Shown: positions 47,755 through 58,810 of the stretch, in pieces
How the letters are laid out: each line of letters opens with the position of its first letter
Numbering within the stretch: position 1 is the first letter of the stretch
Assembly: GCF_000217795.1 (NCBI RefSeq)
Contig: NC_015681.1
Location: 2,037,244 to 2,101,243, forward strand
Direction of reading: 5' to 3'
DNA length: 64,000 nucleotides
Source: Thermodesulfatator indicus DSM 15286
GTDB taxonomy: Bacteria; Desulfobacterota; Thermodesulfobacteria; Thermodesulfobacteriales; Thermodesulfatatoraceae
The notes under the pieces: model-generated
The model's database searches: none
Seen by the model: only the letters and a program-made list of their open reading frames with translations
Told to the model about the DNA's origin: nothing
Position numbers and translations under genes: made by a program

Positions 47755-48367
47755 AGAAAAGCTAAGACTTTATGTGTTAACAGATAGAAAACTTGCGCCA
47801 GAGATAGAGTCAGTAAAAGCGGCCCTTGAGGGGGGAGCTACGGCCATTCAGTTGCGCCTAAAAAATGTTTCTACCAGAGAGATATTAGAAGTTGCCAAAA
47901 AGTTAAGAGAGCTTACCCGTGATTACGGGGCCTTATTCTTTGTTAATGACCACCTGGATGTAGCCTTGGCGGTAAACGCTGATGGCGTTCAGCTGGGGCC
48001 AGATGACCTACCTGTAAGCCTTGCCAAGAAGATAGCCCCACATTTGATTGTCGGGGCTTCGGTCTATAGCTTGGAAGAGGCCCTTAAAGCGGAACAAGAA
48101 GGAGCAGATTATCTGGGAGCAGGAGCAGTTTTTCCTACGGAGACTAAAAGTGAGGCTCAGGTCTTGGGTCTTGACGGTCTAAAAAAGATAGTAGCTTCGG
48201 TAAAAATTCCGGTGGTAGCCATTGGGGGAATAAATCACGAAAATGTTTTGGAAGTTTTAAAAACAGGGGTCTGCGGCATAGCATTAGTGTCAGCCATTAT
48301 GGGAGCTACTGATATAACGATGGCTACTAAGAAAATGAAAGACTTGTTAAATGAGCATTCTATTTAA
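47744..48367 (+). CDS. thiE: Thiamin-phosphate synthase
   Basis: A 207-residue TIM-barrel enzyme that joins the pyrimidine pyrophosphate and thiazole phosphate into thiamin phosphate. Motifs are LYVLTDRKLAP near residue 8, GATAIQLRLKN near 31, FFVNDHLDVALAVNADGVQLG near 65, GASVYSLEEALKAEQEGADY near 105, and VVAIGGINHENVLEVLKTG near 165. Start is a GTG-class or internal codon with the thiM overlap. It converges with the ModE-like gene (eight-base overlap). Full length. Confidence 0.95.
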   Translation: MSFKEKLRLYVLTDRKLAPEIESVKAALEGGATAIQLRLKNVSTREILEVAKKLRELTRDYGALFFVNDHLDVALAVNADGVQLGPDDLPVSLAKKIAPHLIVGASVYSLEEALKAEQEGADYLGAGAVFPTETKSEAQVLGLDGLKKIVASVKIPVVAIGGINHENVLEVLKTGVCGIALVSAIMGATDITMATKKMKDLLNEHSI

Positions 48368-48719
48368 ACAATTTTGTTAAATTTTTTTGGAAGATTTGGC
48401 TCTTTTTTTCTAAAAATAAATCAAAGTCTTCTTCTAGATTTTCGAACAGCTTTAAAATAGCAATTCCGGTTTCTGTAAGGGTAGCTCCTCCTCCGCCTTT
48501 GCCTCCAGTAGATGTGTTTATTAAAGGTTTAGGGGCATTTTGGTTCAGGGATTCTACATGGCGCCAGGCCCTACGGTAAGACATACCAAGGGCTTTGGCG
48601 GCTGCTCTTATAGAACCCAGTTCATGTATCTTTCGTAAAAGGGCTACTCTGCCAGGCCCCAAAAAAGGTTTACCTTCTTCAGTGGAAACCCATATTTGGC
48701 CTTTAACAAAATATTTCAT
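48360..48719 (-). CDS. ModE N-terminal-type transcriptional regulator
   Basis: A protein of about 119 residues with only the ModE N-terminal winged-helix: GPGRVALLRKIHELGSIRAA, AKALGMSYRRAWRHVESLNQ, and the Gly-rich TSTGGKGGGGATLTETG that forms the wing. The molybdate-binding TOBE domains of full ModE are absent. Such short proteins respond through another factor or act alone. ATG 48719 is used; an upstream TTG at 48731 is possible. It converges with thiE and faces a 185-base gap with the Pat-like gene, where an operator may lie. Confidence 0.85.
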   Translation of the reverse strand: MKYFVKGQIWVSTEEGKPFLGPGRVALLRKIHELGSIRAAAKALGMSYRRAWRHVESLNQNAPKPLINTSTGGKGGGGATLTETGIAILKLFENLEEDFDLFLEKKSQIFQKNLTKLFK

Positions 48720-48906
48720 AAGAATGTCCAAAACTGATTTTTTATAATTTTTGTAACTTTTTCTGCTAGAATTTTTTGATTTATGTTAAACTTTAGCCCT
48801 GATTTAGCCAAATAAAAAAGATAAATAACTCGATATAAAAAAGTTTAAGATTTACTTCCGGCCAAAATTTTGCATAAAGGAAATAAAAACTCAAAGAGGT
48901 TGATTT

Positions 48907-51372
48907 ATGTCTATTTATAATCTCGACCATGTATTTAAACCCAAGTCTATAGCGGTGGTAGATGTCATCCCAGGAGATGCTTCTCCAAGCGAACTTTTAT
49001 TACGTAACCTTGTTTGGCGGGGATTTCGAGGAGATGTTTTTTTAGTGAACAAAGCTCAGGAAGAAATTTGTGGCCTCGTTCCTTATCCTTCTTTAACTGC
49101 TGTTCCTTCGCCAGTTGATTTGGCCATTATTGCCGGCCCAGTAGAAAACTTATGGGACAATCTAAATGATTGCGTCAAAAAGAAGGTAAAGGGAGTTATT
49201 ATCCTTGCCAGAGATTTTGTAGCTCAAATGAAAAATCCCGAAGTGGCCTTGTCCCAGCTCTACGGTTACGTTGTTAAACACAATATTCGTATTTTGGGGC
49301 CTAACACCCTTGGTTTCTTGCGGCCACACTTAAAACTTTACGCTTCAGTGGTGCCTAATAAATTTGAACCGGGCAATTTAGCTTTTATAAGTGATAGTTC
49401 TACTCTGGCTTCAGCTATCTTAGATTGGGCAGAGAAAAAAAGAGTAGGCTTTAGCTTTTTCACTTCTTTGGGAGATAAAGTCGATATCGACTTATCAGAC
49501 ATGATAGACTACCTCGGTATTGATTTCCATACCAGGGCCCTCATTGTCTTTATAAGAGATGTAAAATCTGGCCGAAAATTTATTAGGGCGGCCAGAGCCT
49601 TTAGCCGAGCCAAACCTATAATGGTGGTTAAAAGCGGCCGTTTTGTCTCTTTTGACGGGGAACGTTACACTGACATGGCTCAAATTATTAAGAGGGATTG
49701 GGTCTATTCCGCAGCCTTCCGTCGAGCAGGTGTAGTTGAAGTAGATGAATTGCTAGAGTTATTCCATGTAGCTGAAAGTCTTGCCAAACAACCTCGTCCT
49801 AAGGGTAAAAGGTTAGCTATTGTTACCAATGCCGGAGGGGCAGCAGGAATTGCTGTTGATGCCCTTCGAGCCAACAACGGTGATTTGGCCGAATTAAGCC
49901 CCAAAACTAAAGAAGCTTTGAAGGAAATCCTTCCTGAAGAACGCCTCAAAAACCCGGTGGATCTTCTATCTTATGCCCCCCCTTCGGCTTATCACAAAGC
50001 TATTCTCGCCTGTTTAAGGGACCCTCAGGTTGACGGCGTTATAGTACTTCATACTCCAGAGTTTGGCATTAACGTAGAGGAGTTGGCCTGGGCAATTATT
50101 AAGGCCCATCAGCAAGTTCGTTATAAGCCGGTTTTGGCCTCATTCATGGGTGAAGAAAGGGTGGAAGCTGGCCGTCAGCTCCTGAGTGAACATAATATAC
50201 CTAACTTTATTACTCCTGTAGAAACGGTCAAAAGCTTTCTTTATATGTATCGTTATGACCATCTACTAAAGCTACTTTTTGAAACTCCTGGATCTTTGCT
50301 CGAAAATTTCTTCCCCGACCAGAAAAAAGTACGCAAGATTATTGAAAAAGCAGCCCTAGAAGACCGCTTCATCCTTAACCAGGAAGAATCTTTCGCAATC
50401 TTAGAGACATACGGTATTAAAGTTTCTAAAGAATTGCCCGAATCCGAGGCTGAAGTTTATCCTTTGTCCGTTGGTATGTTTAAAGACTCCCATTTTGGTT
50501 CCATAATATCCTTTGGTTTCGGTGGGCCGGCTCTCAAAGCTGAAAAAGACATCGCCCTGGGACTTCCACCTCTTAATCAAACGCTTGCCTTGCGCGTATT
50601 GGAACGGACTAAAATTTATAAATTTTTGACTGAAGAAAAAAAATATTCACCTGTCCCCCTTGAAAAACTTTTAGTTCTTTTTTCTCTTCTAATAGTTGAT
50701 TTTCCGGAAATAAAAGAAATTGAATTAAATCCAGTTTGGTTTGGTAAAAACGGCTATGTCGTCTCAGGAGCCAAGATTTATCTTGAAGACTTTGCCTTTT
50801 TACCACGTAAAGAAACTCGGACTTATCATTGCCCGGCCCACTTGGCTATTTGTCCATATCCTAATCAATTTGTCTTTAACGTTTGCTTGAAAGATGGCTC
50901 AGAAGTAAATATTAGACCCATCAAGCCTGAGGATGAACCCCTTCTTGCCGAGATGTTTTCTTCTTTAAGTGGAGAGACTTTGAGGCTTCGCTTTATGCAG
51001 CCACGGAACCAGATCACACATGAAGAGCTGGCTAGAATGTGTCACGTAGACTACGACCGAGAACTCAACCTAGTGGCAGAAGTTAAAGAAGATGGCAAGC
51101 TACGTATTATTGGAATGATAAATCTTTTACGTTTACCTGATGAAGAAAGTGCGGAAATGGCTCTTCTTGTAGCTGACAATTGTCAAGGCAAAGGCTTAGG
51201 TTGGCTCCTCTGCAATACTATGCTTCAAGTAGCCAAACAATTAGGTATCAAGAAAGTATATATGGAAATTCTTACTGAAAATGTTAGAATGCAAAAATTA
51301 GCTGAAAAATTGGGCTTTAGAATTCAAAGTCGCGAAGAAGATGTCATAAGGGTGGTAAAAGAAATTGCTTAA
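48907..51372 (+). CDS. Pat-like fusion: acyl-CoA synthetase domains plus GNAT acetyltransferase
   Basis: An 821-residue protein. Residues 1-300 form CoA-binding and CoA-ligase domains (SIAVVDVIPGDASPSELLLR, VTNAGGAAGIAVDAL). Residues 480-640 are an ATP-grasp remnant, missing about 70 residues around the usual Lys and HKSDVGGV segment, so ATP-dependent synthesis is probably lost. Residues 655-821 are a GNAT domain (RPIKPEDEPLLAEMFSSLS, ADNCQGKGLGWLLCNTMLQV). It resembles protein lysine acetyltransferase Pat. It overlaps the deacetylase gene by eight bases, making an acetylation pair. Confidence 0.85.
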   Translation: MSIYNLDHVFKPKSIAVVDVIPGDASPSELLLRNLVWRGFRGDVFLVNKAQEEICGLVPYPSLTAVPSPVDLAIIAGPVENLWDNLNDCVKKKVKGVIILARDFVAQMKNPEVALSQLYGYVVKHNIRILGPNTLGFLRPHLKLYASVVPNKFEPGNLAFISDSSTLASAILDWAEKKRVGFSFFTSLGDKVDIDLSDMIDYLGIDFHTRALIVFIRDVKSGRKFIRAARAFSRAKPIMVVKSGRFVSFDGERYTDMAQIIKRDWVYSAAFRRAGVVEVDELLELFHVAESLAKQPRPKGKRLAIVTNAGGAAGIAVDALRANNGDLAELSPKTKEALKEILPEERLKNPVDLLSYAPPSAYHKAILACLRDPQVDGVIVLHTPEFGINVEELAWAIIKAHQQVRYKPVLASFMGEERVEAGRQLLSEHNIPNFITPVETVKSFLYMYRYDHLLKLLFETPGSLLENFFPDQKKVRKIIEKAALEDRFILNQEESFAILETYGIKVSKELPESEAEVYPLSVGMFKDSHFGSIISFGFGGPALKAEKDIALGLPPLNQTLALRVLERTKIYKFLTEEKKYSPVPLEKLLVLFSLLIVDFPEIKEIELNPVWFGKNGYVVSGAKIYLEDFAFLPRKETRTYHCPAHLAICPYPNQFVFNVCLKDGSEVNIRPIKPEDEPLLAEMFSSLSGETLRLRFMQPRNQITHEELARMCHVDYDRELNLVAEVKEDGKLRIIGMINLLRLPDEESAEMALLVADNCQGKGLGWLLCNTMLQVAKQLGIKKVYMEILTENVRMQKLAEKLGFRIQSREEDVIRVVKEIA

Positions 51373-52333
51373 AAGACTCCCTGTTGTTTATTCGCCAGAA
51401 TTTAAATATCACCGCACCAGTCCCCAACATCCTGAAAATCCTAAACGGCTTGAAGTTATTATACAGAGGCTAAAAGAAGGTATCCTTGGCCAAATCGTAG
51501 AGTTTTTTGAGCCCGATCCTGCTCCGCTTGAGTGGGTTAAAGAAGTCCATGACATTAATTATCTCCTCAGATTTGAAGAGGCTTGTTTGCGAGGCCGTTC
51601 TTTTATTTGCGGTAAGGAAAACGAAATTTGTTATGATACTTACGAAATCGCCTTTTTAGCCGCTGGGGCGGTGATAGACGCGGTAGAATTGGTAGAAAAA
51701 GGTGAGAAATTTATTTTTTGCCCGGTAAGGCCTCCGGGGCACCACGCTGAAAGCTATACGGCCCTCGGTTTTTGTTTTCTCAACAACATAGCTATAGCGG
51801 CTCGTTATTGGCAGAAAAAGTACGGCCGCCGCATCATGATTATAGATTGGGATGCACATCACGGAAACGGGATACAAAATATTTTTTACGAAGATGATCA
51901 AGTATTTTATATAAGTATTCACGAAAACCCTCGTTTTAGTTTCCCAGGTACAGGGCTGGCTGAAGAAAGGGGAAGAGGCCGAGGGGAAGGCTACACTTTG
52001 AATATTCCTCTACCTTTAGATAGTGGTGATGTTCAATTTGTAGATGCGTTTATAGAACAGATAGAACCAGTAGTAAAAGAATTCAAGCCAGACGGGTTGA
52101 TTATAGCGGCTGGTTTTGATGCCCATCAAGACGACGATATGGCCTATCTTAATGTTACCACCGCTGGGTTTGCTGAAGTTAGCGAGATTGTCCGCTCTTG
52201 GAGGGAGGAGTTTGATTTTCCGGTGATTTCAGTCCTTGAAGGTGGCTATAATCTAGAAATACTTCCCACCTGTGTGGCCGTACACTTAAAAGCTATGCTT
52301 GACATTGAAGCCGAAGACCCTGAAGACTTTTAG
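51365..52333 (+). CDS. AcuC-like histone-deacetylase-family lysine deacetylase
   Basis: A 322-residue zinc hydrolase of the class II HDAC/AcuC family. Catalytic signatures are RPPGHHAE near residue 122, DWDAHHGNGIQ near 162 (two zinc ligands and His), FDAHQDDDMA near 250 (third ligand) and LEGGYNLE near 300. It removes acetyl groups from protein lysines or acetylpolyamines. The start is TTG inside the Pat-like stop (overlap 51365-51372), behind AGGGTGG. Adjacency to Pat suggests paired control of the same targets. Confidence 0.9.
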   Translation: MLKRLPVVYSPEFKYHRTSPQHPENPKRLEVIIQRLKEGILGQIVEFFEPDPAPLEWVKEVHDINYLLRFEEACLRGRSFICGKENEICYDTYEIAFLAAGAVIDAVELVEKGEKFIFCPVRPPGHHAESYTALGFCFLNNIAIAARYWQKKYGRRIMIIDWDAHHGNGIQNIFYEDDQVFYISIHENPRFSFPGTGLAEERGRGRGEGYTLNIPLPLDSGDVQFVDAFIEQIEPVVKEFKPDGLIIAAGFDAHQDDDMAYLNVTTAGFAEVSEIVRSWREEFDFPVISVLEGGYNLEILPTCVAVHLKAMLDIEAEDPEDF

Positions 52334-53055: not shown

Positions 53056-54414
53056 TTATTTTAAGATTCCAACTGATATTTCAGGGAAAAAAATAATCGA
53101 AGCCAAAGCTATTATTTGAATCAATATGAAAGGTACCACACCTTTATAGATATCTGCGGTAGTTACCTCAGGTGGGCTAACACCTTTTAGATAAAACAGA
53201 GAAAAACCAAGAGGAGGGGTGAGAAAGGATGTTTGCAGATTCATAGAAATAATAATACCAAACCATACTAAAGCTATTCTTGATGGTTCTGAAAAGTCAG
53301 AAAAAATAGGAGATAATAGCCTTTCGGCTACAGGGGCTACTAAAGGTACAACTATAAAGACTATTTCAAAAAAATCCAAGAAGAATCCTAATATAAAAAC
53401 AACTAGATTCACCGTTAAAAGAAATCCGTATTCTTTGCCAGGAAGATGAGTAAGAAGATCTTCGATAACAAAATCTCCATAAAGCCCTCTAAAAACTAAA
53501 GTAAAAAAAGTAGCGCCTACCAAGATAAATAAAACCATAGAGGAAAGTTTTACTGTACTTGTAAGACATTCTTCAAGGGTCTTTCTTGTTAATCGACCCG
53601 AAAACCAGGCAAGTACCATAGCTCCTACTGCCCCAAAGGCTCCAGCTTCGGTTGGAGTGGCCCAGCCTGCAAAAATACTACCCAATACTACAGCTATTAA
53701 AAACAAAGGAGGGAAAACCACTTTTAACACTTTTTTAATAAAAGCAACTGTAGATACATTTTTTTCCTTAGGAATAGCTGGAGCTATTTCAGGCTTAAAT
53801 AAAGAAACCAAAAAGACATAAAGAACATAAAACCCCGAAAGAATTAAACCTGGAATTATAGCGGCAAGAAACATATCGCCTACAGAAACTCCTAATTGGT
53901 CAGCTAAAACAATTAAAACAATAGAAGGAGGTATTATCTGTCCTAAGGTACCTGAAGCGGCTATTACACCGCAGGCTAACTTTTTAGAATATCCATGTCT
54001 TAACATTGCAGGCAGAGAAATAAGGCCCATGGTAATAACAGTAGCGCCAACAATCCCTGTAGCGGCAGCCAAAAGTGTTCCTACAACAACAACACTTATA
54101 GCGAGTCCTCCTCTTAAAGAACCAAAAGCCTGCCCCATGGTTTCTAGAAGATCTTCAGCAAGTCCCGAACGTTCTAATATGCTTCCCATGAAAATGAAAA
54201 AAGGTATGGCCAACAGGATATAATTTTCAGCAATTCCCATTAATCTTTCGGGGAGGGCATACAAAAGATCAAAACTAAATAAACCAAATTTTATACCTAA
54301 TAATGAAAATAAAAGAGCTGTTCCAGAAAGGGCAAAAGCTACAGGAATACCTAATAAAAGGAAAACAATTAAAGTAACAAACATTAAAGGAACCAAGATA
54401 GTTTCAGGAGACAT
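53056..54414 (-). CDS. dctM: TRAP transporter large membrane subunit DctM
   Basis: A protein of about 452 residues with 11-12 membrane helices and the DctM pattern: NYILLAIPFFIFMGSILERS, LPAMLRHGYSKKLACGVIAA, LGQIIPPSIVLIVLADQLGV, TPTEAGAFGAVGAM. It is the transport subunit of a sodium-driven TRAP system. ATG 54414 is chosen because GGGGAAG precedes it; the overlap with dctQ is 11 bases. With the divergent Tat-exported binding protein and lactate-dehydrogenase genes, lactate or another 2-hydroxy acid is the likely substrate. Confidence 0.93.
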   Translation of the reverse strand: MSPETILVPLMFVTLIVFLLLGIPVAFALSGTALLFSLLGIKFGLFSFDLLYALPERLMGIAENYILLAIPFFIFMGSILERSGLAEDLLETMGQAFGSLRGGLAISVVVVGTLLAAATGIVGATVITMGLISLPAMLRHGYSKKLACGVIAASGTLGQIIPPSIVLIVLADQLGVSVGDMFLAAIIPGLILSGFYVLYVFLVSLFKPEIAPAIPKEKNVSTVAFIKKVLKVVFPPLFLIAVVLGSIFAGWATPTEAGAFGAVGAMVLAWFSGRLTRKTLEECLTSTVKLSSMVLFILVGATFFTLVFRGLYGDFVIEDLLTHLPGKEYGFLLTVNLVVFILGFFLDFFEIVFIVVPLVAPVAERLLSPIFSDFSEPSRIALVWFGIIISMNLQTSFLTPPLGFSLFYLKGVSPPEVTTADIYKGVVPFILIQIIALASIIFFPEISVGILK

Positions 54415-54922
54415 CTTCCCCCCGCAAGGAATACCAGGATTTAATGGTTTCACTAATACTTTGAAGAACTAACAAAAAGAGCCCCAAAAGAACGGCTATT
54501 TTTAACGGATATCTAGGCAGACCATTAGGATCAGGAGAGCTTTCTTTAATTACCCAAGATTTTAAAACCATAGGATAAGTCAAATAGCATAATAAGAGAG
54601 AAACAGGAATAAAAAAGAATATTCCAGCCAAAAAATCTATTCTTTTTTGAGTTTTTTTAGAAAAACGATTATAAAAAATATCTATTTTTACATGTTCTTT
54701 ATGTAGTAGTGCATAAGAAAAACCATAAGCAAAAATCAAAGCAAAAAGATACCATTGCATTTCAAAGTACATATTAGAAGTTAAATTAACACCAAAATAT
54801 TGAGAAAGTTTTCTCAAGATAGCATTTGTAAAACCTAATAAAATCATTATAAGACAAATATAGTTTAATATGTAACCAGTAGCAGAAGTTATTTTGTCTA
54901 TAAAGTTTGCTATCTTTTTCAT
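54404..54922 (-). CDS. dctQ: TRAP transporter small membrane subunit DctQ
   Basis: A 172-residue protein with four membrane helices: IDKITSATGYILNYICLIMI, ALIFAYGFSYALLH, FFFIPVSLLLCYLTYPMVLK and LLGLFLLVLQSISE. The charged loop KEHVKIDIFYNRFSKKTQKR is typical of DctQ. It associates with DctM. Nine bases follow the Fe-S dehydrogenase subunit stop, so transporter and dehydrogenase share a transcript. Full length. Confidence 0.9.
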   Translation of the reverse strand: MKKIANFIDKITSATGYILNYICLIMILLGFTNAILRKLSQYFGVNLTSNMYFEMQWYLFALIFAYGFSYALLHKEHVKIDIFYNRFSKKTQKRIDFLAGIFFFIPVSLLLCYLTYPMVLKSWVIKESSPDPNGLPRYPLKIAVLLGLFLLVLQSISETIKSWYSLRGEDVS

Positions 54923-54931
54923 TTTTTTATC

Positions 54932-56161
54932 TTAGCTCCCGTAAGCTTCTAAAACAATTTCTGCTAAATGTTTAACTTTATAAGTTTTATTAAACTTAAT
55001 GGTTCCTTCTGATAGCTGTAATATACATGCAGGACACGTAGTTACTACTATATTAGCCCCAGAATTTTCAATAGAGGAAACTTTCTTTTCTAAGATCTTA
55101 AAGGAAACATCAGGATAAAATAAATAGTAACTTCCTCCATTTCCACAACAGAAATCAGCGTTTTCCATCTCTATAAAACTTATTCCCCTAATTTGATTCA
55201 AGATTTTTCTAGGTTCTTGATAGATTTTAAGGCCCTTTTTGAGATGACAAGGATCATGATAAGTAACTTTATAAGAAAGTTTTTTTGAAAATTCTTTCAA
55301 ATTTTGATTACTACTAAGAAACTGTGAAAACTCTATGATTTTTTTGCTCCATTTTTCAGCTAGCTTTAATTTTTCTGAATCATCTTTAAATAAAAATAAG
55401 TACTCATTTTTTAAAGTATTAGTGCATGAGGCACAGGCAGTAACAATATGTTTAGGATTGTATTTTTCAAAAAGTTCTAAATTTTTCATGGCTAATTCTT
55501 TAGCAGTTTTAAGTTCACCGTGAACCATCATAGGAGTTCCACAACAGATATGTTCTTCTGGTAAAACAATATCAATTCCATTTATTTCGAATATCTTAAG
55601 AACAGCTTCCCCTATAGACGGATAGAAAAAGTTTAAAGAACAACCTGTAAAAAACAGATAATCTTGAGAATGTTTTTTTATAAAATTAGAAGCCATACTT
55701 CTTAAATCTTTAGAAGGAAACTTAGGCATAAAGGCGTCTTTTTTAAGTTTGCTTGTTAAGACTTGTTCTTTTTCGTCAAAAAATAAAGGAGTAAACTTAT
55801 TAAGAAGCTTTAAACCTGTTTTTAATAAACCTGGATTTTTAAGGCCAAAAAACATGCCTTTTTTAATAAGAGGAAAACTCTTTCTTTCTGAAATTAAGTG
55901 TCTTATAGCAATAGCTGTTTTTCCAAAGCCAACATTAGACGGGCAAACTTCTACACAAGAAAGACATATTAGACAGTTATAGATAATATCTAATGTTTTA
56001 TTGTCAATTTCGTCTTTTTCTAGAAAAAGATTAGAAAGAAATATTTTCCCTCTAGCTACAGCGCTCTCTTTTAATTCAGCATAAAAAACAGGACACACGG
56101 CCATACAATTTCCACATTTGATACATCTAAGAAGTTTTTGTTTGATCTCTTCGGGTAACAT
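54932..56161 (-). CDS. GlcF/LldE-like Fe-S subunit of a D-lactate or glycolate dehydrogenase
   Basis: A 409-residue protein with two 4Fe-4S ferredoxin motifs in the N-terminus, CIKCGNCMAVCP and CLICLSCVEVCP, and two CCG domains: EHICCGTPMMVHGE near residue 205 and HDPCHLKKG with FCCGNGG near 330-355. It passes electrons from the FAD subunit to the quinone or another carrier. ATG 56161 follows the FAD-subunit stop by no gap. Lactate-linked placement suggests D-lactate; glycolate is possible. Confidence 0.9.
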   Translation of the reverse strand: MLPEEIKQKLLRCIKCGNCMAVCPVFYAELKESAVARGKIFLSNLFLEKDEIDNKTLDIIYNCLICLSCVEVCPSNVGFGKTAIAIRHLISERKSFPLIKKGMFFGLKNPGLLKTGLKLLNKFTPLFFDEKEQVLTSKLKKDAFMPKFPSKDLRSMASNFIKKHSQDYLFFTGCSLNFFYPSIGEAVLKIFEINGIDIVLPEEHICCGTPMMVHGELKTAKELAMKNLELFEKYNPKHIVTACASCTNTLKNEYLFLFKDDSEKLKLAEKWSKKIIEFSQFLSSNQNLKEFSKKLSYKVTYHDPCHLKKGLKIYQEPRKILNQIRGISFIEMENADFCCGNGGSYYLFYPDVSFKILEKKVSSIENSGANIVVTTCPACILQLSEGTIKFNKTYKVKHLAEIVLEAYGS

Positions 56162-57541
56162 TTATACTATTTTTTCTGGATTTATTATGTTTTTAGAATC
56201 AAAAGAATTTTTTATCATGCGCATTACTTTTATTCCTTGATGGCCGAGTTCTTTAAGAATGTATTTCTTTTTAGCTATACCTATTCCGTGTTCTCCAGTA
56301 ATTGTTCCTTTTAAAGAGAGAGCTTTTTCTACAATTTCGTGAAGAACTTTGTCTAATTCTTCCAAATCTTTTTCTTCTTGTGGGTCTATTAAAATCATGG
56401 GATGAACATTTCCATCTCCGGCATGACCTACCGTGGCGATGGGAAGATTATATTTTTTAGAAATTTCTTGGATACCAACTAACATCTTTACAATTTTTGT
56501 TCTAGGAACAGCTACATCTTCAATAAAAACAGCTGGTTTTAGCCTAGCTAAGGCAGGAAAGGCTGCTCTTCTAGCCTGCCATAACTTTTCTCTTTCTTTT
56601 TCGTCTTTAGCTATAGAATAGTCTCCATTAAATTTTTTAATAATTTCCTGGATAATTTGAGCCTCTTCTTCTATCTGATCTTTTCCCATTCCATCAAGTT
56701 CTATTAATAAAAGTGCTTCTTTTTCGGTTGGTAAATTGATTTTTAGATAGTTTTCAACTGCTTTAATAGTGAAGTTATCCATAATTTCTAAAGTGGCAGG
56801 AATTATACGAGCCCGTATAATATTGGCTATTACTTCTCCTGCGTTTTTTAATGAATCAAAGGTAGCCAAAAAAGTTTTTTTGTATTTGGGAGCAGGTATC
56901 AGTTTTAAAAGTATTTGGGTAAAGAGACCTATAGTTCCTTCTGAGCCTACAAAAAATCCAGAAAAATTGTACCCCGTAACGTTTTTAACACATTTGCCGC
57001 CAAAACGGAAAATTTCGGCATTAGGTAAAACTAGCTCCATACCCATTACATAATCTTTAGTAACGCCGTATTTAAGCCCCCTTAATCCCCCAGCATTTTC
57101 TGCCACCGTGCCCCCAATGGTGGCCACGGCTACAGAGCCTGGGTCCGGAGGATACATGAGACCAAACTTAGATGCTTCCTTATCCAGGTGAGCCACAACT
57201 ACTCCTGGTTCTACCAGGGCGGTCATGTTATCGGGATCGATTTCAAGAATTTGATTCATCTGCTGAAAAGAAACAACTAATCCCTTTTTTTTGGGAACGG
57301 GGCCTCCACTAACAGAGGTGCCAGCCCCTCGGGGATATAAAGGGATATCGTATTCCAGAGCAAATTTGACCAGTTCACGTACTTCTTCAGTGCTTTTAGG
57401 AAAAGCTACCCCAATAGGTGTTTCCCCAGTAAGCCCAGGGGTGGCATCGTAGGAATAGACAATGGTTTCTTTTTCTTCGGTAAGAAGACGATCTTTTAAT
57501 AGCCTTTTACAATCTTCTAAGAACAGCTTTTCTTTATTCAT
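56162..57541 (-). CDS. GlcD-like FAD subunit of a D-lactate or glycolate dehydrogenase
   Basis: A 459-residue flavoprotein. The FAD-binding PCMH domain has PLYPRGAGTSVSGG, VEPGVVVAHLDKEASKFGL and GGTVAENAGGLRGLKYG; the C-terminal FAD-oxidase domain has GHAGDGNVHPMI and ITGEHGIGIAKKKY. It oxidises a 2-hydroxy acid, most likely D-lactate, and hands electrons to the Fe-S subunit encoded immediately downstream. It heads the operon glcD-glcF-dctQ-dctM. Full length. The 180-base gap to the divergent binding-protein gene must hold both promoters. Confidence 0.93.
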   Translation of the reverse strand: MNKEKLFLEDCKRLLKDRLLTEEKETIVYSYDATPGLTGETPIGVAFPKSTEEVRELVKFALEYDIPLYPRGAGTSVSGGPVPKKKGLVVSFQQMNQILEIDPDNMTALVEPGVVVAHLDKEASKFGLMYPPDPGSVAVATIGGTVAENAGGLRGLKYGVTKDYVMGMELVLPNAEIFRFGGKCVKNVTGYNFSGFFVGSEGTIGLFTQILLKLIPAPKYKKTFLATFDSLKNAGEVIANIIRARIIPATLEIMDNFTIKAVENYLKINLPTEKEALLLIELDGMGKDQIEEEAQIIQEIIKKFNGDYSIAKDEKEREKLWQARRAAFPALARLKPAVFIEDVAVPRTKIVKMLVGIQEISKKYNLPIATVGHAGDGNVHPMILIDPQEEKDLEELDKVLHEIVEKALSLKGTITGEHGIGIAKKKYILKELGHQGIKVMRMIKNSFDSKNIINPEKIV

Positions 57542-57721
57542 AGACCAACCTTTTTAAAAATGTTTCAAGACTAAAGCAAGGGCTTTTAGACTAAATTTTT
57601 TTGATAGATCTAGCCCTTTAACTTCTAATTAATTTGTGAGATTAAAGATTGATAAAATTGATTTAATTTTTTACTCTACAAAAGCTTAAATGTAAAAATT
57701 ACTATAAAAAGGGAGGTTGCG

Positions 57722-58810
57722 ATGGAAAGAAGGGATTTTTTAAAGATGGCTGGAATAGCCTTAGCGGGTACAGCAGCAGGCAGCCTAATCAAACCGATTA
57801 ATGTTCATGCCAAAAAGCGTATAAGATGGCGTATGGCCTCCAGTTTCCCTAAAGCCGTAGATGTTATTTATGGAGGAGGCAAAACAATTTGTGATCTCGT
57901 CCGAGAAATGACTGACGGAATGTTTGACATTCGTATTTACGCTGCCGGGGAATTAGTTCCTGGTTTAAAAGTATTTGATGCTGTTCAGGAAGGCGCTATC
58001 CAGGCAGGACATACAACCCTTTATTATTACATTGGAAAACACCCTGCTTTTGCTTTTGGAACGGCGGTTCCTTTTGGTTTAATTTATAGACAACAAGAGG
58101 CTTGGCTGCATCAAGGAAATGGTAACAAACTTATTAATTCTTTGGCCAGTGATTTTAATTTGATAACCTTTCCCGCCGGTAATACAGGAGCCCAAATGGG
58201 AGGCTGGTATAGAAAGCCCATCAGATCTTTAAAAGACCTTAAAGGACTTAGAATGAGGATTCCCGGACTAGGCGGAAAAGTTATGGCTAGATTGGGCGTT
58301 AGTGTACAAGTACTCGCTGGAGGAGATATATACCCTGCTCTTGAAAGAGGGGCTTTAGATGCTACTGAATGGGTTGGCCCTTACGATGACGAAAAATTGG
58401 GTTTCTACAAAGTGGCCAAATACTACTATTATCCAGGTTGGTGGGAGCCTGCGCCTTCTATTCATTTGGTGGTAAATAAAAAGGCCTGGGAGAACCTTCC
58501 CAAAGAATATCAAGAAGTTCTTAGGGCCGCGGCCAGAATTGCTAACGTCAAAATGATGGCTCAATATGATGTTAAGAATCCTCCGGCCTTAAAGAGGCTT
58601 CTTGAAAAGGGTGTAAAGCTTGAAAGGTTCCCTGACGATGTAATTAAAGCGGCTAAAAAAGAGGCTTTTGATCTGTATGAAGAAATTGCCTCTAAGGATG
58701 CTACTTATAGAAAAATATTTGAAGATTGGAAGAAATTTAAAAAGGAAACTAGCTCCTGGTTAGGTCTTAATGAATTCGCTATGGAAACTATTACGTTTAA
58801 AGGAGTTTAA
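57722..58810 (+). CDS. dctP: Tat-exported TRAP substrate-binding protein (lactate/2-keto acid type)
   Basis: A 362-residue periplasmic binding protein with a twin-arginine signal, MERRDFLKMAGIALAGTAAG, then a TRAP DctP fold: WRMASSFPKAVDVIYGGGK, GHTTLYYYIGKHPAFAFGT, GLRMRIPGLGGKVMARLGVS and EWVGPYDDEKLGFYKV. The YYYYPGWWEPAP region resembles TakP-type binders of lactate and 2-keto acids. Divergent from the matching membrane and dehydrogenase genes. GGGAGG precedes the ATG. A strong terminator follows. Ligand is inference. Confidence 0.9.
   Translation: MERRDFLKMAGIALAGTAAGSLIKPINVHAKKRIRWRMASSFPKAVDVIYGGGKTICDLVREMTDGMFDIRIYAAGELVPGLKVFDAVQEGAIQAGHTTLYYYIGKHPAFAFGTAVPFGLIYRQQEAWLHQGNGNKLINSLASDFNLITFPAGNTGAQMGGWYRKPIRSLKDLKGLRMRIPGLGGKVMARLGVSVQVLAGGDIYPALERGALDATEWVGPYDDEKLGFYKVAKYYYYPGWWEPAPSIHLVVNKKAWENLPKEYQEVLRAAARIANVKMMAQYDVKNPPALKRLLEKGVKLERFPDDVIKAAKKEAFDLYEEIASKDATYRKIFEDWKKFKKETSSWLGLNEFAMETITFKGV

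Follow-up and report, generated by a model that had tools for sequence, protein, structure and literature searches.

The 64,000-nucleotide stretch of the Thermodesulfatator indicus DSM 15286 genome analyzed here (the window; contig NC_015681.1, positions 2,037,244 to 2,101,243 of a single contig of 2,322,224 bases) carries a gene for a Pat-type (type I) lysine acetyltransferase (48907-51372, 821 aa) that runs into a gene for a zinc-dependent deacetylase (51365-52333, 322 aa, TTG start), both on the forward strand. The locus raises the question of whether the two genes form a reversible acetylation unit, and what has become of an acetyltransferase whose synthetase-like half lacks the nucleotide-binding part of its ATP-grasp domain. 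Our analysis suggests that the pair is probably a two-gene switch for reversible lysine acetylation of acetyl-CoA-producing synthetases, and that the missing segment has been lost several times among Pat proteins. Gene starts were assigned mechanically, as the first start codon following a stop.

Pfam places five domains in the Pat protein: CoA_binding_2 (residues 13-138, 48943-49320), Succ_CoA_lig (residues 155-291, 49369-49779), Ligase_CoA_2 (residues 304-440, 49816-50226), the leftover C-terminal half of ATP-grasp_5 (residues 518-625, 50458-50781) and GNAT (about residues 668-805, 50908-51321). This is the type I arrangement, in which an NDP-forming synthetase region precedes a C-terminal GNAT domain, here with an incomplete ATP-grasp. 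The N-terminal three quarters share the domain order of ADP-forming acetyl-CoA synthetases, but the protein has no phospho-His, ATP lysine or HKS segment and gains the GNAT domain. The closest solved relatives are the Pat entries 9it0 (E = 2.4e-122) and 9isq (1e-121); the full-length 9it0 chain (886 aa) aligns over nearly the whole length, and its printed parts match, by eye, E. coli PatZ from the K-12 record. Literature searches showed no PatZ structure paper among the titles they listed. Within the GNAT domain, the acetyl-CoA motif Q/RxxGxG is present as QGKGLG, and E750 (51154-51156) aligns with E. coli PatZ E809, which we take to be the catalytic glutamate. The column holds E in 48 of 55 Pats, Q in six and D in one. 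No other Pat-type match exists in the genome, and a contig search returned a sole locus, from Thermodesulfatator autotrophicus, encoding an 84% identical Pat. A literature search combining Thermodesulfatator with acetylation yielded nothing on protein acetylation there, as judged by title.

The ATP-grasp_5 profile is matched only over positions 110-220 of 221, and about 70 residues of the domain are absent, the ATP lysine and HKS motif among them. Relative to 9it0, residues 498-581 (84 residues) are replaced by about 10; the alignment breaks at 506/497 (window/chain) and resumes at 517/582, which puts the junction (residues 505-517) at 50419-50457. The preliminary description of this DNA had reported an ATP-grasp without its Lys and HKS segment, and alignment with ADP-forming synthetases bears this out. 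The alignment has 58 rows: 54 Pats of the genomes searched, the window's own counted, together with ADP-forming synthetases and E. coli PatZ; it does not contain the G001 and G008 N-terminal pieces, which stop at contig ends. Between 'YGI' and the strand preceding 'DxxFG', the window Pat has 16 residues versus 85-93 in full-length Pats, with gaps at the positions of both the ATP lysine and the HKS histidine. The segment is likewise absent from the Pats of two relatives, G007 (84% identical) and G004 (76%). A gene-model error or frameshift is rejected as the origin of the short form: the junction is too short and the relatives are alike, and because only about 45 nt of DNA are left there, no segment can be hidden in another frame.

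The shortened protein bears the marks of a maintained gene. Identity with the G007 Pat is 80-88% per region and 83% in the ATP-grasp remnant, which retains its IELNP segment, and the comparison indicates purifying selection, remnant included (nonsynonymous divergence dN 0.108, synonymous divergence dS saturated at 2.4; the corresponding ratio for G004 was left unused owing to an indel). Open frame and purifying selection together rule out a pseudogene. An AlphaFold model built from a two-row alignment had a mean predicted local distance difference test score of 38.2 and was not used.

The synthetase region itself appears to be without the residues needed for catalysis. Besides the lost segment, the GAS..G motif of the CoA_binding_2 domain and the SQSG motif in the CoA-binding half are altered, and the phospho-His of ADP-forming synthetases (SHTG) is replaced by D256 (49672-49674). 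The inactivity had initially been tied to the deletion, and this link does not hold. The deletion is not what inactivated the region, because the synthetase regions of Salmonella Pat and E. coli PatZ are already non-catalytic, as described in PMC8556138. In E. coli PatZ the segment is present, K and HKS included, but there is a gap at the phospho-His column. That column holds His in 16 of 29 full-length Pats and in 4 of the 23 short Pats that have any residue at this position; as four short forms retain it, the order in which phospho-His and segment were lost is variable or unsettled. The Pats of G022 and G028, full length yet devoid of the lysine and HKS, look like an intermediate state.

What remains for the region to do may be sensing, as the preliminary description proposed for acyl-CoA or nucleotides. 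For Salmonella Pat, PMC8556138 gives a dissociation constant of 290 nM for acetyl-CoA binding to the inactive region, which such type I enzymes require for activity. An acetyl-CoA-sensing role is possible for the window Pat, although its altered CoA motifs speak against it. The nucleotide half of the proposal appears unlikely, since both the ATP lysine and HKS lie in the lost segment.

Loss of the segment is not peculiar to this genome. It is short (14-32 residues) in 25 of the 54 Pats, the window's own included, and 85-93 residues long in 29, figures that give no prevalence because the best-ranked Pats were fetched together with short-looking ones. In a sample of 395 genomes, 119 have a Pat match, and in at least 23 of these a match runs across the junction in one piece. 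A 56-row tree computed with the trait columns removed requires seven changes between short and full-length forms, versus 18.0 on average when the labels are shuffled, and six of the changes are forced by starred branches. We read the changes as losses because the segment is homologous to that of the synthetases. A single loss for all short Pats is not favored by this tree. It contains long branches (G264, EcPatZ, G285) and 11 rows of odd letter composition. The partial G270 Pat (526 aa) was excluded from it and from the junction view, and 'ACD_own', a wrong-frame open reading frame of 115 aa, was excluded from the trees. For the window's clade, a 21-row tree prefers two losses within the order, and a single loss is not rejected (approximately unbiased test, p = 0.118). 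Since one loss within the order is therefore allowed, and since G285 and G264, both long single branches, may belong together, we count at least five independent losses rather than six.

The deletions have similar end points in the 24 short forms viewed. In most of them the helix ahead of the junction ends in 'Y-x-I/L', and a linker leads from there to the strand that precedes 'DxxFG'; the Pats of G196 and G264 retain some ten to fifteen extra residues on the right side of the junction. A literature search on truncated ATP-grasp regions in GNAT acetyltransferases brought up only work on NAT10. Of the 18 short-Pat genomes that lie outside the window's order, 13 have a further Pat match besides the short one, among the matches listed. 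By eye, the short Pats of one clade (L137-L144) adjoin a gene resembling an NtrC-type response regulator throughout, several also with a sensor kinase, and the short Pat of G264 (L146, 40-1850) comes after two genes resembling CoA-transferase subunits.

The second gene of the pair encodes a complete Hist_deacetyl domain (all 298 profile positions) with the HH, DxH, D and Y residues of zinc deacetylases at H126, H127, D163, H165, D252 and Y295. It had been called AcuC-like; the zinc deacetylase assignment stands, and the label fits only loosely. Among single-domain solved structures the highest score, 195 bits, goes to 5zmp, an entry named lysine deacylase, with 163 bits for a single HDAC6 domain and 144 for the HDLP entry 1c3p. 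Tandem HDAC6 chains top the ranking because the scores of their two domains add up. HDLP belongs to class I, as does B. subtilis AcuC according to PMC8556138, and the class of the window protein is not settled by these matches. The genome also encodes a sirtuin and a second deacetylase. In a quick tree, 14 deacetylases encoded downstream of pat and the three orphans of G003, G005 and G009 form a clade of 17 (support 98 in the Shimodaira-Hasegawa-like approximate likelihood ratio test), set apart from 30 other deacetylases. The main split of the clade is that of the Pat tree, and the branching differs in its first half, where G010 is nested.

As the preliminary description stated, the two genes overlap, by 8 nt (51365-51372). 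Overlaps of 8, 8, 4 and 1 nt in G004, G007, G008 and G010 suggest that pat and deacetylase are translationally coupled. Adjacent genes occur in at least 15 of the 119 pat-carrying genomes: the window genome (G000), G004, G007, G010, G104, G319, G390, G300, G068, G215, G372, G355, G191 and G165, plus G247, whose deacetylase lies upstream and falls outside the clade of 17. G008 is an additional case, its pat gene split across two contigs with overlapping end sequences. The pair is found in eight families (f1, f2, f31, f50, f63, f67, f80 and f101), and a ninth, f53, has the upstream arrangement. The genes are not adjacent in G018, G021, G033, G022 and G028. The idea of a ready-made acetylation unit therefore stands as far as a Pat-type acetyltransferase adjoins a zinc deacetylase well beyond this genome, and the shortened ATP-grasp is no part of it: pairing and deletion are separate traits. 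Full-length Pats occupy 10 of the 14 fetched loci in which the deacetylase follows pat (G010 and nine outside the window's order), and none of the 18 short Pats outside that order has a deacetylase gene in the fetched stretch, several of which end at contig ends.

Relatives add further genes to the pair. A CBS-domain gene lies 3' of the deacetylase in 9 of the 14 loci; the two representative proteins, from G008 and G104, have two CBS domains each, and one of them also shows an ACT match below threshold. Both align with solved AcuB over nearly their full length (GsAcuB, E = 3.8e-24 for G008 and 3.4e-24 for G104; BsAcuB is weaker). GsAcuB is the top match for the G104 protein. An ADP-forming acetyl-CoA synthetase gene adjoins the pair in 6 of the 14 loci, which come from six families, among them that of the window genome; it lies downstream in G104, G191, G355 and G165 and divergent from pat in G008 and G010. 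A comparable CBS gene is found 15 nt upstream of the independently shortened Pat of G285.

This layout resembles the acuABC unit of Bacillus, with Pat replacing AcuA. In B. subtilis the acuABC genes supply an acetyltransferase and a deacetylase that act on AcsA, together with AcuB (PMC8556138). According to PMC13121692, AcuB carrying AMP binds AcuC and inhibits it, an interaction that Ap4A abolishes, whereas PMC13039410 has Ap4A enhancing the inhibition. Word searches found no Desulfo- names in either of these 2026 papers, and neither PatZ nor ADP-forming in PMC13121692. Both systems combine an acetyltransferase and a zinc deacetylase in one operon, with an AcuB-like gene and an adjacent acetyl-CoA-forming synthetase gene in some relatives. 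They differ in the type of acetyltransferase, in the linked synthetase (ADP-forming here, AMP-forming and encoded by the divergent acsA in Bacillus) and in the unsettled class of the deacetylase, and the window genome joins the first two genes only. Compared with the known type I enzymes, the window Pat has the same dead synthetase region and C-terminal GNAT, but it lacks the nucleotide-binding part, has altered CoA motifs and overlaps a deacetylase gene.

We propose that at high acetyl-CoA the GNAT domain would acetylate lysines of acetyl-CoA-producing synthetases and turn them off, and that the deacetylase, probably co-translated with Pat, would strip the mark and restore them. The N-terminal region would be a dead ADP-forming acetyl-CoA synthetase retained as a scaffold or oligomerization module, perhaps also as an acetyl-CoA sensor, its nucleotide-binding part excised because no selection kept it. 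If adenine nucleotides have any input, an AcuB-like CBS/ACT protein would convey it to the deacetylase; a candidate is the homologue (63% identical to the G008 protein) at G000:C1:800486-801178, unlinked to the pair.

Acetyl-CoA synthetase is the target of Salmonella Pat, and Pat prefers PxxxxGK. Two Acs matches in the window genome exceed the family cut-off, both with PKTRSGK; a 'stop inside' the second is simply the normal end of the gene. The motif of the AMP-forming Acs ends at K638, which makes this lysine a likely site. The ADP-forming synthetase, encoded near C1:376 kb and away from the pair, is suggested as a further target by gene neighborhood in the relatives, the sole basis for it; literature searches found no report of an ADP-forming synthetase as a lysine-acetylation target, the nearest result being a paper on Haloferax mediterranei. 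In G018, G021 and G033 the Acs match is followed after about 130 nt by a sirtuin match, and in G023, G029, G031, G032 and G040 after about 0.9 kb; all these genomes are members of the family whose pat and deacetylase genes do not adjoin.

Several observations weigh against the proposed switch. In the window genome Acs, the ADP-forming synthetase and the AcuB-like gene all lie away from the pair. Within the order, pat matches occur in 11 of 41 genomes and AMP-ligase matches of the Acs model (counted at E <= 1e-30, not all over the cut-off) in 41 of 41, so Acs can do without Pat. G003 and G005 have the deacetylase (L090, 5080-6048; L091, 2374-3339) and no pat match; G003 looks like a natural loss, because G001, with the same neighbor genes, has a pat gene truncated at the end of a contig. 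Among the matches of the G008 CBS protein, GsAcuB ranks third, behind 5awe (a putative acetoin utilization protein, 2.1e-39) and the plain CBS protein MJ1225, which outscores the Bacillus-group AcuB entries. Linkage of this type of CBS gene may also be secondary, because the same penicillin-binding-protein-like gene adjoins it where it is not near pat.

The strongest rival, which we regard as rather unlikely, is that the pair forms a global acetylation system acting mainly on other proteins, with no special tie to acetyl-CoA synthetases. B. subtilis AcuC has several substrates (PMC13039410), E. coli patZ has been studied acetylome-wide (PMC4299603), and the pair of the window genome stands apart from synthetase genes. 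The ADP-forming synthetase gene beside six of the loci argues the other way, as does the known AcuA/AcuC target, an acetyl-CoA synthetase (PMC8556138). Somewhat more doubtful still is the view that the deacetylase does not undo the work of Pat: its substrates would be acetylpolyamines or other small amides, and the operon would be all that the two genes have in common. Proteins of the HDAC fold include polyamine and amide hydrolases, some among the structure matches of this one, the orphan deacetylases of G003 and G005 would fit, and the sirtuin and second deacetylase of the genome could be taken in its favor. This reading is at odds with the conservation of the pair in eight families, with the AcuB-like genes in 9 of 14 loci, AcuB being a regulator of AcuC in Bacillus, and with the ranking of solved matches, where a lysine deacylase and then HDAC6 domains, among others, precede the polyamine hydrolases. 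Continued sensing of an adenine nucleotide, or synthesis of acyl-CoA, by the synthetase region is very improbable: the ATP-grasp remnant keeps IELNP under purifying selection, but ATP lysine, HKS motif and phospho-His are all gone, IELNP is itself altered in G018, G021 and G033, and G022 and G028 have kept the length of the segment and not its lysine and HKS.

Two neighboring features complete the locus. A ModE-like DNA-binding protein of 123 aa, slightly below the model cut-off, is encoded divergently from pat (48360-48731, reverse strand); a similar gene adjoins pat in G007 (L081), and none is seen at the G004 locus (L080). Downstream, at 53056-58810, genes for a TRAP transporter stand together with those for a CCG iron-sulfur protein and a GlcD-like FAD oxidase, a probable cluster for 2-hydroxyacid uptake and oxidation; TRAP genes are near pat in G004 and G007 too.

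The dead synthetase region was already known from the Salmonella and E. coli enzymes. What is new is its repeated shortening with similar end points, and the pat-deacetylase pair across families of this phylum with CBS and synthetase neighbors. A bolder version of the proposed switch, which we put forward as a long shot, is a Pat-based acu counterpart that controls the ADP-forming acetyl-CoA synthetase in this phylum: the dead half of Pat would dock that homologue, and nucleotide sensing by an AcuB-like protein would free the segment for repeated excision. The natural, repeatedly evolved deletions in the regulatory region of Pat would allow the role of the dead synthetase half to be tested by comparing short with full-length enzymes. 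The acu-type layout of acetyltransferase, deacetylase, CBS adaptor and synthetase appears to extend to another phylum, and it makes the ADP-forming synthetase a target that merits testing.

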